64,000 nt of DNA from Rhizodiscina lignyota (taxonomy: Eukaryota; Ascomycota; Dothideomycetes; Aulographales; Rhizodiscinaceae). The notes under the pieces were generated by a model. The model ran no database searches, was not told where the DNA came from, and was given only the letters and a program-made list of their open reading frames with translations. The stretch spans positions 2,356,001 to 2,420,000 of the forward strand of contig ML978123.1 of the NCBI GenBank assembly GCA_010015805.1. Reading direction: 5' to 3'. Shown here piece by piece: positions 34,330 through 42,582 of this stretch. Made by a program: the position numbers and the translations under genes. Numbering within the stretch: position 1 is the stretch's first letter; every line of letters begins with the position of its first letter.

Positions 34330-37016
34330 ATGTCTGCCGCAAACCGTGGCACTACTTCTTCGTCCAGGCGAAAGCGCTCGCGTGAGCCGGACGACGACGC
34401 CATGTCTTCGCATCCACCATCGAGCCGTACGTGCTAAACGCCGAATTCTATAGCCATGGAATATTGCTAACGGCTGCCCAGCTCCTGCATCATCTCCTCC
34501 CATTGGCCTTCAAGACGACGAAGAGGACGACATCGACCCTGAAGATGACCTCATTGGGGACATCGACGACATCGACGAGATGGCTGAAGACGAAGCTGGT
34601 ATTGACCTGTTTGCGGACAATTTCGAGCGGGACTATCACGACCGGCCCGACGAAAACTATGAAGCTGCTGGTCTCGATGATGATGGTGACTATGATGAAC
34701 TCGACCTTGCTACACGTCGACAGCTTGAGGCTCGTCTCAATCGTCGTGATCGCGAGCTGAGGCGTCAGCGCGATATGCCTGCAGCGTTCCTCGCAGACGA
34801 TGAGGATGTTGGGATCGCCGATTTGACGCGCCAGCCCAGGAGGCGGCGACATCGATATGACGAGGATCAAGATGATGTTGACATGATGGATAATATCATG
34901 GATGAAGAGATCCCGCTCGAGGCCCTAAATGACATCAAGGCAGCCAGTATTACTGACTGGGTCGCTCAACCTGCGGTGCACAAATCCATTGCACGCGAAT
35001 TTAAATCCTTCCTCACAGAATACACTGATGAGCACGGCACATCTGTCTACGGCACGCGGATAAGGACGCTCGGTGAAATCAACGCCGAAAGCTTGGAGGT
35101 TTCTTACGACCATCTGTCCAGTTCAAAGGCGGTCATTGCATACTTCCTTGCGAACGCGCCCACTGAGGTCCTGAAGATTTTCGACCAGGTCGCAATGGAT
35201 GTCACTCTGCTCCACTACCCTGACTATGAGCGGATTCATACAGAGATTCATGTTCGCATCAGCGATTTGCCGATCAGCTACAGCCTGCGCCAGCTCCGTC
35301 AAACCCATCTCAACTGCCTTGTTCAAGTCAGCGGAGTTGTGACTCGCCGCTCTGGTGTCTTTCCTCAACTGAAGTACGTCAAGTTTGACTGCACGAAGTG
35401 CGGCACGACCCTTGGACCCTTCTCGCAAGACTCCAACGTTGAGGTCAAAGTATCATTCTGCCAGAATTGCCAATCGAGAGGCCCCTTCACTCTCAACTCG
35501 GAAAAGACGGTGTACCGCAACTACCAGAAGCTCACCTTGCAAGAAGCGCCTGGTACCGTTCCTGCAGGTCGTCTCCCTCGTCACAGAGAAGTTATTCTAC
35601 TTTGGGATCTCATTGACTCTGCCAAACCTGGTGAGGAAGTCGAAGTTACGGGCATCTATCGTAACAACTATGATGCATCTCTCAACAACAAGAACGGGTT
35701 CCCAGTCTTCGCTACTATTCTCGAGGCGAACCATGTCGTCAAGTCGCACGATCAATTAGCAGGATTCCGGCTCACGGAAGAGGATGAGCGCAACATTCGT
35801 GCACTCTCCCGCGATCCAAAGATTGTCGAAAAGATTATCAACTCTATCGCGCCTAGTATCTATGGACACACCGATATCAAGACTGCTGTTGCATTGAGCT
35901 TGTTTGGAGGTGTGAGCAAAGAAGCTCAAGGCAAGCATGCGATTAGAGGAGATATCAATGTTCTTCTCCTTGGTGACCCTGGTACCGCAAAGTCGCAAGT
36001 TCTTAAGTACATTGAGAAGACCGCTCATCGCGCCGTTTTCGCCACCGGCCAAGGTGCCAGTGCTGTCGGTCTGACTGCATCTGTTCGGCGGGATCCGATG
36101 ACTGCAGAGTGGACACTGGAAGGAGGAGCGCTTGTGCTTGCAGACAAGGGTACTTGCCTGATTGACGAATTCGACAAGATGAATGACAAGGACAGAACCA
36201 GTATCCACGAGGCAATGGAACAACAGACAATTTCCATTAGCAAGGCTGGTATCGTGACTACGCTGCAGGCGCGTTGCGCAATCGTCGCAGCCGCCAATCC
36301 GATTGGCGGGCGATACAATAGCACCATACCGTTCTCGCAAAATGTAGAGCTGACCGAACCGATTCTGTCTCGTTTCGACATCCTGTGTGTTGTTCGCGAC
36401 ACTGTAGATCCGAGCGAAGATGAGCGGTTGGCCAAGTTCGTCGTCACTTCTCACGGTCGCGCTCATCCGATCACTGCTTCCCAAGCAGCAGTGAATAGTC
36501 AGCTCAGCGAAAACGGGGATATGGATGTCGATGAGGAGTCGCAGCAGCAGCCAAAGCAGGAAGGCGAGATTCCGCAGGAACTGCTGAGGAAATACATTCT
36601 CTACGCACGCGAGAAGTGTAGGCCGAAACTTTACCAAATCGACCAAGACAAAGTGGCGCGTCTATTCGCAGACATGCGTCGTGAAAGTTTGGCAACTGGT
36701 GCTTATCCTATCACCGTAAGTCCCGGCTTCTTTTCAACTCTAGAGACTGCTTAGTGCTAACATCGCTCAGGTTCGACATCTGGAAGCCATCATGCGTATC
36801 GCAGAAGCATTCTGCAAGATGCGGCTGAGCGAATACTGCAACGCTACCGACATTGATCGCGCAATTGCAGTAGCGGTAGACAGCTTTGTCGCCAGCCAAA
36901 AAGTAAGCTGCAAGAAGGCCCTCGCAAGGGCATTCGCGAAGTATACGCTTGCGCGACCGGGTGCGGTGAGGAATGGACAGTCAAGAAGGAATAACGGCGT
37001 CATCGCCGCGGCATGA
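34330..37016 (+). CDS. MCM2: MCM2, subunit of the replicative MCM2-7 helicase
   Basis: Mcm2 is part of the hexameric helicase loaded at replication origins and also chaperones histones H3-H4 through its acidic N-terminus. Three exons: 34330-34426, 34482-36715 and 36771-37016, introns of 55 bp each, total 858 residues. Seen: an acidic N-terminal region (EEDDIDPEDDLIGDIDDID), the zinc finger (FDCTKCGTTLGPF and SFCQNCQSRGPF), the MCM-box Walker A in its family form (GDPGTAKSQVLKYIEK), Walker B (CLIDEFDKMND), the arginine-finger segment (EPILSRFDILCVV) and the C-terminal winged region (RHLEAIMRIAEAFCKMRL). The first exon, starting at MSAANRGTT, was found through its GTACGT donor and is short. Confidence 0.97.
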
Positions 37017-37441: not shown

Positions 37442-37801
37442 TCAAGATGCTGTATTTCCTTGCTTCTTCTCCCACTCTTCAGGCGTAAAACACTTGGGCG
37501 TCCATGCATGGATTGCCGCGATTTCTTCCTTAAGCACCGAGTTCACCAGTCGATGCCGTGCCAGAGTTGTCTTCTTCGCAAATTGAGGAGACACTATCTT
37601 CGCCTCGAACATTTGACCACATCCACCTGCGGAGAATTAGCATGCCTACGTCAAGGAGCTGTTATGCTGCGCACCCGACATGTCTTCGATGTCGACATGG
37701 CTGGCTCCCAGTTTCTCCACCAGCTTGCCCTTCAGCGCCTCTGGGGTAATGCCGGTATCATTCTGCATCTCTGTTGCTTCTGCGTCGGTTCGAGCACTCA
37801 T
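37442..37801 (-). CDS. BOL2: BolA-family protein, BOLA2/Fra2 type
   Basis: BolA2/Fra2 binds monothiol glutaredoxins through a shared [2Fe-2S] cluster and takes part in cytosolic iron-sulphur traffic and iron sensing. Two exons on the minus strand, 37801-37675 and 37626-37442, joined by a 48-bp GTGCGC...GCAG intron (branch point GCTAAT), encode 103 residues, the usual size. Seen: [14 protein letters not shown] helix, [15 protein letters not shown] with the cluster-loop Cys, the invariant RHRLVN His, [11 protein letters not shown] and the C-terminal FTPEEWE. The cytosolic type is inferred from the absence of a transit peptide and from the GGCGQMF loop. It is too split to appear as one open frame. 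Confidence 0.88.
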
Positions 37802-38264
37802 GTCGATGGGAAGATGGGGCGATGGTCGACGATGAAGTTTTCCGATCTAGATCTGATAAAGATGTCGAGATTAGGTTGACCAAGACCTAAGGAACCCCTG
37901 TCGAGGCTGCAGAAGGGCAGAAGGGCCTCGCCAATCGCATTGGCCACATGTTTCATCGCCACTGCTCCGCTCCAGCTTGCATCCGCAGGCAAACTGTCTC
38001 CATACAGAGAACCTCACTTAATTCACCGAGCGCTTTCCTTTCTGCCTCGCCAGTGTGCTGCTGGGCTGAGGCTTTGTGTACTATAATAATTCTCCTTTGG
38101 AACTGAGTGCCATTACCACATCCTTTCATCACCCGCCTCGTATTGCACTGCCTCGACAGCTGCACCACCGACGGTCACGACTCCTTCGACTTCACCACTC
38201 TCATATACTGCAGGTACATATGTCTTCTGCTCGCAGATAATAACATCCAACGAGTCCGCTCGCC
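37802..38264. promoter_or_regulatory. divergent promoter region (BolA2 / FKBP-STIMATE gene)
   Basis: About 460 bp between two divergent starts. No specific regulatory motif recognised. Confidence 0.4.
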
Positions 38265-40024
38265 ATGGGGATACCCCAGGGTTTTAAGCGCGTCTGGGGC
38301 ATACGCGTCCTATCCAGCCTCCTCCTTTTAGCCCCACTCAACACAGCCGTCCTCCTGGCAGACCGTGGTGATGTCGACATCGATGTTACGCGTACAGGAG
38401 ACTGCACACAAAAGTCGCATAGAGGCGACACCTTGAACGTCTATTACACCTTGAGGCTGAAGGATGCAGAAAGAGTCACGGAGACAAACGTCGGCACGCA
38501 ACCGTTCGAGTTTACTTTGGGGACAGGCGCAGTCATACAAGGATGGGAGATTGGACTCGAAGAGATGTGTCTGGGAGAGGAGAGACGACTGACGATACCG
38601 CCTGAATTGGCGTACGGAGCATTCGGAAGTCCCCCTGCTATTCCAGGGGGCGCAACTCTAGGTGGGCCTTGATGTTCCAAAGGACGTGGCACACGAATGG
38701 GAGCTGACGTTGACGTAGTGTTTGATACGGAACTGGTTGGACTCAACGGCGTGGCAGCACCTAGTGGAACCCCTACTGTCGGCATAGTAACTGCTCCAGC
38801 AGAACCGACGTCCTCACCTACCTCTACAGCTGCGGCCGCCGAGTCTGAGCCTTCGGACGCATTAGCTGATGCTGTACTACCCCCAGATCTCCCAGTGGTA
38901 GATGTCCCTCCGCCAATCGAATCTGTTGCAGCAGAGGTTGAAGCGGCGGACAAAGATGAAAGCGACAATGGCGAGTGTAGACTTCTTGGTCCGTTCGCCA
39001 TCTTTATTCAAGGTGCTCTCGGCGCTCTCGCTCTCCTTTCGCTTGTTTATAAAAGATGGCGCGAGACGCCTCGCCGGCCATTGAAGATTTGGTGCTTTGA
39101 TGTGTCGAAGCAGGTCCTTGGTAGCGTATTGACGCACATCCTCAACCTGCTTATGAGCATGCTTTCAAGTGGACAATTCGATGTTGCGACAGCCGTCAAA
39201 CCTGGTTCTCCATCTTCGAGGATGCTGTTTGTGCGCGCCGATCCCGGGTTCGTTCAGGACGACGCAGCACCAATGAGGGACAACCCTAATCCGTGCAGTT
39301 TCTACTTGCTCAACCTGGCGATCGATGTAAGCTTCCCATTTATACAGTAATTCTCAGGCGAACTGGTTCTGACTATACTCCATTTTAGACAACGCTTGGT
39401 ATACCAATACTGGTTCTCCTCCTCCGAATCCTCTATCACCTCTTCATGTATACTGCTCTCGCCAATCCTCCAGAATCCATTCGCTCCGGCAACTATGGGA
39501 CTCCACCTCGGTACGGATGGTGGCTTAAGCAATCCTTCATATACTTCATCGCCCTCTTCATCATGAAGCTGTGCGTCTACGCACTCTTGCAAATGCTGCC
39601 ATGGCTCGCCTGGGTCGGCGACTGGGCACTGCGATGGACAGAGGGCAACGAGGCGCTGCAGATTGCGTTCAGCATGCTGGTGTTCCCACTGATCATGAAC
39701 GCGCTGCAGTATTGGATCATCGATAATTTTATAAAGGATCCTGCTGGTGGCAGTGAAGGTGCATGGGATGGCCATGAGCAGCTGCCTCAGGAAGATGAGG
39801 ACGATGATCATAGGAGAGGTCACGATGACGACGACGATGAGGAGGAGGCTGAAGATGAGATCGAGGAGGTTGAGAATGAGGATGTCAAAGCTGTTCGCCA
39901 GACGCTGAAAGATGCGAATCCAACAGCTCTGCCGGCGTATGACGAGCATGTAGACGGACATGGCGGTGGATCAAGTAGGGGAGAGAGCAGAGGTGGATCG
40001 TCCGAAGAGGAGGTCAAAACGTGA
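38265..40024 (+). CDS. ER-type FKBP peptidyl-prolyl isomerase domain fused to a STIMATE/YPL162C-type membrane protein
   Basis: Three exons: 38265-38661, 38719-39326 and 39389-40024, introns of 57 and 62 bp in matching phases, 546 residues. The N-terminus is a signal peptide (SSLLLLAPLNTAVLLA), followed by an FKBP domain at about 37-145 (RGDTLNVYYTLRL, FEFTLGTGAVIQGWE, RRLTIPPELAYG, GGATLVFDTELVG). A linker rich in Ala/Pro/Glu of roughly 75 residues leads straight into a multi-helix domain (GECRLLGPFAIFIQ, KIWCFDVSKQVLGSVL, LNLAIDTTLGIPIL, YGWWLKQSFIYF, LQYWIIDNFIKD) of the family that includes human STIMATE/TMEM110 and yeast vacuolar YPL162C. The tail is very acidic. The second exon encodes both the FKBP end and the membrane domain, with no Met between, so separate genes are unlikely. 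The FKBP aspartate motif (FD-S) is not recognisable, so isomerase activity is doubtful. Confidence 0.85.
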
Positions 40025-40424: not shown

Positions 40425-42582
40425 ATGACCACATGCTCGTACGATTGCAGCACGGTGAAGAAGAAATGGCAGCCTGATCCTGATATTACCGGCCTTGGAG
40501 TAAGTATCAAAACAAGACGTCCAATTTTGTCGTTGACTCTCTAATGTACCAGCCAGGTCGTTATTGGATACTCCGCAACAGCCTTCATTGCCGTCTTTAT
40601 CCTTGCGGCATACTTTATTATGGCGCACCAGCCTAAACTTGATCCCTTTCGAGATAAAAATGGAAACCCCCCTCCCTCCTCCGAAAGGGCCGTCCCATAC
40701 AAGCCAAATCCCATCGACGAACTTGCGCTTGGGTTGTTGTCGAAGATATGGGAAAGAAGACGTCGGGTTCTAGAACATCCTCAGGTCAAGAACTCGCAGC
40801 TAGAGAGAGCCCTAACCAAGGTACGGAAGGTGGAAATATGATTCAGCGCGTCGATTAGCAATCCGCTAATGCTTTAAAGTGCGTTCTGAACATGGGCGAC
40901 ATTCAAATCGTAACGGGCATCTCTCTTCTAGTTACCGGTTACTCTCAACTCCGATGCGGCCTCTCCGTTTACGATTGGCAAGTCTTGGTTTTGTTGGTCT
41001 TTTTCTCAAGTGTCACCCATCTCGCGTGCCTGAGTTTCCTCCGAAATTACCTCTACATCCGCCGTCCTCAACGCTTGTTGAGAGTAATTTGGATGAGCAT
41101 TATGGCCATTATGCTAGTGGTGGCAATGGTTCCGACGGCCAATACCGACATCCTCTCATGGATAGATGCGGTCGGTCCAGTCGATTATGATAATCCAAAC
41201 CTCTCACCTGCGGCGTATGCGATCTGCAATTTCAGAAAGCCTCTCGATACCACTTCGGAGTCCTATCCTTCCGTGGTTGTCTCTGTGTTCCTTATTGTGT
41301 TCGGTCTTTCGTCCCGGTTTTTCAGACTATACAAGATCTTATCTGTGAACCTGGTGGGCCGACTCAGGAGATTCATGAGTGATAAGGCTCAGTTTGTGCT
41401 GCGAAGGGTATACGAATGGGCCGAAGTCGAAAGTTCTCCTATCGGTCTAAGGCGAATGTTAGTTTTTCGCCCGCTGCTTGCCACCTTTGTCTCCGCTCGG
41501 GTCTTAGTAGATGCGTACGGATCCATGCTAATAGAGGTATGATAATATGTCGATGAAGGCATTGGTCTCCTGTGTGCTCACTACAAACAGGTTTGTTGGC
41601 TTCTTGTTTGCTTCACCTGGGCTATCGCCCATCTTGTTGTCCTCCTACGGGAGCGAGGCGTCTTCATCCAGACCGACTGGACATTTGGCCAAATCCTCCC
41701 TATGATCCTTCTGGCTGCTCCACTGTTGACATTTAGTTCATTCTTACAGCCTTGTAAGTCTTATTTCCTCGCAGACTGCCTCTCCGAAACCGGTCCAGCG
41801 GCAGTTTTGTGGCCCACAGACTATTGGCCAATAATGAGACAGCTGTGCTGCTGATGCTGGTGCTACTACTGAGACGAACATGATCTGATTGAGAATACAT
41901 AGTTGAGGAAAGAGAGGATCAAGAGAAATGCGGAAACGGAAATGGCTTTCGCATCCGGCCATATCGATATCAAAGCGCGGAGCTCCAGCGGTCACCGTCA
42001 CCGTCGTCCTTGATTACGGAGACCTTCCAGCCCTCCAATAGCAGGAGAGAAGTGCAGCAAGGAGCCGTCGATGACACTCCTGAGCAAAAGTTTTATCGGG
42101 ACTCGTCTTGGGCACCAAATTTCGTTTTCTTCGTCTTATTTCAGCTGTTCTCACTCTCACTCGGAGCCCTCGATATGGTTGCACTTGGTGGCCACGCAAC
42201 TAGCCTTTTCAACCTTTTCGAGGCCGAGCATGCGAATATTAAATTCACTTGGCTCATCTCCTGGCCACCTGTGGCAACGATTTTATGCCAGTACTACTTC
42301 ATTTTATTTCAGCTCGACATCGAAAGCATCAGAGCACAGTGGCCTCGTCAGCGAGCAGCATATAGAGCATGCAGCCTGCTCAATTTCCTCTGCTTCGCAA
42401 GCATGACCGCGTGGTGCACCCTTCCGTTCCTGTGGATTGTTAATCCCGACCCCAACGATGCATCCCTCAGACCCGAAGCTGTCGTGGTCGCTTGCCCTTA
42501 CGGCATTTATTTGCTAGTTCATCTTATTCTAAGGGTTTCCCGCTTCATGTATATCAAAACTACAGTCTTAGAAAAGGCCTAG
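40425..42582 (+). CDS. fungal multi-pass membrane protein of unknown function
   Basis: Five exons: 40425-40499, 40557-40820, 40880-41536, 41591-41753 and 41903-42582; introns of 57, 59, 54 and 149 bp have GT-AG ends and consistent phases, giving 612 residues. At least eight hydrophobic helices are visible: VVIGYSATAFIAVFILAAYF near the N-terminus, then a loop NPIDELALGLLSKIWERRRR, IQIVTGISLLVTGYSQLRCG, LLVFFSSVTHLACLSF, MAIMLVVAMVP, VVVSVFLIVFGLS, CWLLVCFTWAIAHLVVLL, MILLAAPLLTF, FVFFVLFQLFSLSLGALDMV and later ones. A short acidic/basic cytosolic loop lies near residue 420. The start ATGACCACATGC was fixed by the phase of the first GTAAGT donor. Similar proteins occur widely in Pezizomycotina as uncharacterised; I assign no function. 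Confidence 0.8.

Follow-up and report, generated by a model that had tools for sequence, protein, structure and literature searches.

A single gene in the window, a 64,000-nt stretch of Rhizodiscina lignyota DNA, appears to encode an FKBP domain joined in frame to a STIMATE-family membrane domain, two parts that are normally made separately. On the + strand, the gene begins with an ATG at 38265 and its stop codon closes at 40024; the predicted product is 546 aa long. The in-frame fusion proposed in an earlier note on this DNA was borne out, with the start, the end, the exon join and the open linker all matching, and we consider the fusion real at the level of the sequence. In our reading, which we regard as probable, one gene supplies an FKBP2-type FKBP, a lumenal linker and the sole STIMATE domain found, and the product would be a tethered module with weak or no isomerase activity and not a STIM/Orai regulator. 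The features of the gene are as follows.

38265..38661 (+), exon 1, carrying the putative signal peptide and most of the FKBP domain (hydropathy, Pfam and inspection)
38662..38718 (+), intron 1, phase 1, with a length divisible by 3 (57 nt), GTGGGC...TAG
38670..38672 (+), in-frame TGA in intron 1, which ends the ORF 38244-38672
38697..38699 (+), in-frame ATG in intron 1, a candidate start for a speculative FKBP-less STIMATE isoform
38719..39326 (+), exon 2, carrying the last FKBP strand (VFDTELVG), the linker, STIMATE TM1, TM2 and the loop in an uninterrupted frame
38754..38975 (+), linker rich in Ala, Pro, Ser and acidic residues, predicted lumenal (about aa 145-218)
38988..39167 (+), STIMATE TM1 followed by a weaker segment resembling TM2 (together aa 223-282), not covered by the Pfam model but aligned to human STIMATE
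39327..39388 (+), intron 2, 62 nt, phase 0, GTAAGC...TTTTAG
39389..40024 (+), exon 3, carrying the remaining STIMATE domain, the acidic tail and the stop (Pfam and ORF list)
39749..40021 (+), acidic C-terminal tail, predicted cytosolic (aa 456-546; 33 D/E, 8 K/R)

The two domains meet within exon 2. It had been noted earlier that the exon completing the FKBP sheet with VFDTELVG continues into STIMATE, and this held: one frame is open over 38673-39350, and the 608-nt exon 2 passes without a stop from the last FKBP strand through the linker into the first helices of STIMATE, the STIMATE Pfam match beginning at 39294, still in this exon. The claim that no Met codon lies between the two parts stood for the spliced message and failed for intron 1, where there is an in-frame ATG at 38697. 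In-frame ATGs within 38250-39160 were located at 38265, 38565, 38697, 39153 and 39159; the first of exon 2 (39153) is inside the second membrane segment, so a separate in-frame STIMATE start would be possible only at 38697. Within 38740-38990, no sequence fitting the donor pattern GTRNGY turned up.

A stop or an intron splitting the two parts was also looked for, and every intron 1 pair listed still joins them, the list being of frame-keeping GT/GC-AG pairs. Many other such pairs near intron 1 keep the frame open to 39326, and the complete GGATL-VFDTELVG strand is obtained, among the listed pairs, with 38662-38718 alone. When spliced in this way, the FKBP part covered profile positions 1-94 with 96.1 bits, compared to positions 1-87 with 88 bits for the unspliced first frame. 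Intron 1 contains the branch-like sites CTGAC and TTGAC, and its GTGGGC donor is not of the usual fungal form. The intron lies in phase 1 between L and VFDTELV. In the FKBP2 gene of the same genome (L004), intron 3, the last one, lies in phase 1 between L and IFETELV, equal to intron 1 of the fusion in position and phase, which speaks for the splice as well as for descent from FKBP2. With so few genes compared, the intron may also have slid to this place.

When the 546-aa spliced product was searched against Pfam using hmmscan (E up to 1), matches to two families only were obtained. The FKBP_C match spans aa 47-139 and profile positions 1-94 of 94 (E 1.6e-27, 96.1 bits against a cut-off of 21.1), and the STIMATE (PF12400) match aa 325-451 and profile positions 1-123 of 124 (E 2.4e-43, 148 bits against a cut-off of 22). 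The latter match, over 123/124 profile positions, confirmed the earlier description of a complete STIMATE-family domain. A putative signal peptide extends from aa 1 to about 33, with a hydrophobic stretch at aa 13-31; it was judged by hydropathy and inspection, and its cleavage is presumed. Using BLASTP, aa 214-500 aligned to human STIMATE, a sequence that itself matches the STIMATE Pfam model, with 29% identity and an E value of 6e-33; the alignment starts at the Cys before TM1 and runs on to the tail. Relative to the human protein, the fusion carries about 40 additional residues between TM2 and TM3. In the PDB, no chain with sequence similarity to the STIMATE part was found (E up to 1). The only STIMATE stretch found in the 33.4-Mb assembly by Pfam search (E up to 10) was that of the fusion gene, the search being made exon by exon and its counts being lower bounds.

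The linker was examined separately. A 267-nt stretch of it is free of stops in its frame, with one antisense frame open there too, and in 5000 mononucleotide shuffles the linker frame was open by chance in 3.2%. The open linker frame alone is thus weak evidence, and it gains weight because the domains on its two sides were each recognised independently. The GC contents at codon positions 1/2/3 were 0.73/0.59/0.36 in the linker (aa 145-222), 0.62/0.46/0.57 in the signal-peptide-FKBP part and 0.55/0.41/0.62 in STIMATE. The linker is codon-periodic, yet its third-position GC is below that of both flanking coding parts, a point against our reading.

With a hydropathy cut-off of 1.5, TM1, TM3, TM4 and TM5 passed and TM2 was below it, so that the topology is tentative. 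Loop 1 contains 5 K/R against 2 D/E and the linker 2 K/R against 15 D/E; a basic loop 1 together with an acidic linker would fit a lumenal N-terminus by the positive-inside rule at TM1. From these features we infer an FKBP domain in the lumen, five membrane segments and a cytosolic tail. The overall architecture described earlier, with a signal peptide, a lumenal FKBP domain, a linker and STIMATE, was supported by the Pfam domains, the loop charges and a cysteine pair of the FKBP2 type.

This pair, C47/C102 of the fusion, corresponds to that of FKBP2 and was absent from the Fpr4-like and FKBP12 rows of a six-sequence alignment. The identity of the fused FKBP was 50% to human FKBP2, 42% to FKBP2 of the same genome, 41% to the Fpr4-like protein and 42% (human) and 39% to the FKBP12s, so plain identity hardly separates the genome's own FKBP2 from Fpr4-like or human FKBP12. 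The assignment of the FKBP part to FKBP2 was instead made because of the cysteine pair, the intron and the match to human FKBP2. Among the three PDB matches with alignments shown, the best single stretch was human FKBP2 (4nnr, 103 bits, aa 13-140); two chains ranked above it were wheat-type, each with three FKBP stretches, the best at 71.7 bits. An origin from FKBP12 or Fpr4 is disfavoured, with a different intron or none at this place and without the FKBP2 cysteine pair: the last intron of FKBP12 (L012), as read by eye, interrupts the next Phe codon in phase 2 and lies 4 nt further on, and no intron occurs at the place of fusion intron 1 in the Fpr4-like gene (L002).

The Pfam search for FKBP in the same 33.4-Mb assembly (E up to 10) gave four scored stretches in three genes, namely the Fpr4-like gene on C3, the fusion and FKBP2 (two exons) on C2. 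Some 53 kb separate the Fpr4-like gene (C3:2341344) from the fusion gene on the same contig. FKBP2 is a separate gene with a signal peptide by inspection and an FKBP_C match at E 1.6e-35; it ends in KDEL, whereas the fusion ends in EEEVKT, without an ER retrieval signal. That the genome lacks FKBP12 was considered and rejected: Pfam and a human FKBP12 query (E up to 0.001) missed the gene, and a fungal FKBP12 query found its exon 1 on C6 (63% over 35 aa, E 3.3e-6), the later exons being readable by eye. This FKBP12 gene lies at about 940-1610 of the C6 locus L012, on the - strand, split into several short exons.

To read the pocket we used the six-sequence alignment, which includes two FKBP12 sequences, with human FKBP12 numbering. 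At 16 positions, the fusion differed from human FKBP12 by F36V, D37T, R42G, E54A, H87S and I90A, and kept Y26, F46, V55, I56, W59, A81, Y82, I91, L97 and F99. R42, E54, H87 and I90 also vary in other rows, whereas F36 and D37 are missing only in the fusion. D37, R42, F46, V55, W59 and Y82 are described as important for activity in PMC8530231. The replacement of F36, D37 and R42 by V, T and G makes isomerase activity doubtful, and the earlier description of the domain as prolyl-isomerase-like is weakened to that extent; activity is probably weak or absent. Ligand binding and some activity would be possible, as most pocket residues are kept.

An active lumenal prolyl isomerase working on STIMATE or on clients, perhaps sensitive to FK506, would fit the complete fold and the retention of Y26, F46, V55, I56, W59, Y82 and F99, but we consider it rather unlikely given F36V, D37T and R42G in a genome where F36 and D37 are retained both by the separate FKBP2 and by the Fpr4-like protein. 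The other function suggested earlier was that of human STIMATE, which aids the activation of STIM1 at junctions of the ER with the plasma membrane (PMC7796502, PMC8944985). The membrane domain is homologous throughout, and regulation of calcium entry at such contacts could be expected on that ground. A polybasic C-terminal end is reported for human STIMATE in PMC8944985, a trait of the human function and not a requirement of the Pfam STIMATE family, whereas the tail of the fusion is acidic. By charge count over aa 456-546, no terminal polybasic segment was present. We take yeast Ypl162c (YPL162C) to be a STIMATE homologue. In PMC8176713 this protein was chosen for its exclusive location at the vacuolar rim in log phase, so that the vacuole, named earlier as one possible location, is at least as likely as the ER-plasma membrane contact. 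PMC3410928 reports that no homologue of Orai1 or STIM1 was found in the genomes of the human-pathogenic fungi that it examined, and an Orai search of the R. lignyota genome, run without a positive control, gave no match. With STIM1/Orai not found in those fungi, Ypl162c on the vacuole and an acidic tail, calcium entry is not the likely job of the protein, and we regard this suggestion of the earlier note as very unlikely.

The in-frame TGA (38670-38672) and the in-frame ATG (38697) in intron 1, together with the unusual GTGGGC donor, would also allow two head-to-tail genes, a short FKBP gene that stops within intron 1 and a STIMATE gene with its start at 38697, with the fusion being a mis-splice of the model. 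In that case, however, the FKBP would be without its last strand (profile 1-87 of 94), the second gene would start just before that strand, the stop and the start would be only 24 nt apart, and the genome's own FKBP2 has an intron equal to intron 1 in position and phase. We rejected this reading as highly improbable on account of the truncated FKBP, the 24-nt gap and the matching intron. Retention of intron 1 in one gene could have a related outcome: the FKBP would end before its last strand, and it is possible that translation restarts as an FKBP-less STIMATE. A receptor-like device built on this, in which STIMATE is gated by a non-catalytic FKBP that recognises a ligand or an unfolded client in the lumen, with intron 1 switching between the fused and FKBP-less forms, seems unlikely to us, and a sensor role for the fused FKBP in general is possible.

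For the tethered FKBP2-type module that we prefer, the origin may have been a duplicated FKBP2 gene that came to sit upstream of a STIMATE gene, with the last exon of the duplicate then running on into STIMATE. The FKBP module, permanently tethered and with isomerase activity that is weak or absent, would serve in the lumen as a binding domain or a chaperone, and might hold a lumenal client or partner beside the STIMATE membrane domain or, alternatively, help that domain to fold and stay put. The site of action would be the ER or vacuolar membrane, and the role would not be the regulation of STIM/Orai-type calcium entry.

Compared with known proteins, the fusion has in common with ER-lumenal FKBP2/FKBP13 (yeast Fpr2) a signal peptide, the FKBP_C fold and the cysteine pair, and with FKBP2 of its own genome the position and phase of the last intron; it differs from FKBP2/FKBP13 in being membrane-tethered in one chain, without a KDEL end and with F36/D37 lost. 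It has in common with STIMATE (human TMEM110) the complete membrane domain, the N-terminal Cys and TM1-TM2, and differs from the human protein in the FKBP module that replaces a short N-terminal tail, in the TM2-TM3 loop that is longer by about 40 aa and in the acidic tail without a terminal polybasic segment. Neurospora NcFKBP3 (FKBP22) is like the fusion an ER-lumenal FKBP with an added C-terminal part. The added part of NcFKBP3 is a charged tail, predicted to be an amphipathic helix, as described in PMC1618848, whereas that of the fusion is a membrane domain. In 14 of the 16 repertoires tabulated there (S. cerevisiae and S. pombe being left out), 0/45 FKBPs were listed with a membrane domain; this count reflects the annotation of 2006 and includes four Pezizomycotina (A. 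nidulans, A. fumigatus, N. crassa and G. zeae) and no Dothideomycete.

No paper on an FKBP–STIMATE fusion was found in the openly accessible literature searched, and protein databases may already hold the fusion as an automatic domain architecture. A 123-aa stretch of STIMATE from exon 3 gave 4 pattern matches and 0 relatives in viral_contigs and 33 pattern matches and 0 relatives in genome_contigs; neither collection is fungal, so these zeros say nothing on the spread of the fusion. STIMATE/YPL162C proteins seem to be little studied in fungi. With its lumenal FKBP, the natural fusion gives a clue to the side of the membrane occupied by the N-terminus of STIMATE. Gene-fusion logic further hints that STIMATE proteins may have a partner in the lumen that assists folding or binds. 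This raises the question of whether Ypl162c, or human STIMATE, binds Fpr2/FKBP2. Fungal FKBPs would also gain a membrane-anchored, apparently de-catalysed branch.

Downstream of the fusion gene, 40859-42582 (+) holds open frames rich in hydrophobic stretches, in two of which no Pfam match was obtained at E 0.001. On the other side, 37442-37846 (-) contains two open stretches running away from the fusion gene, with putatively BolA-like sequence and a likely start about 0.46 kb upstream of 38265. Further upstream lies an MCM2 helicase subunit gene at 34454-36754 (+), with the Pfam domains MCM2_N, MCM_OB and MCM.
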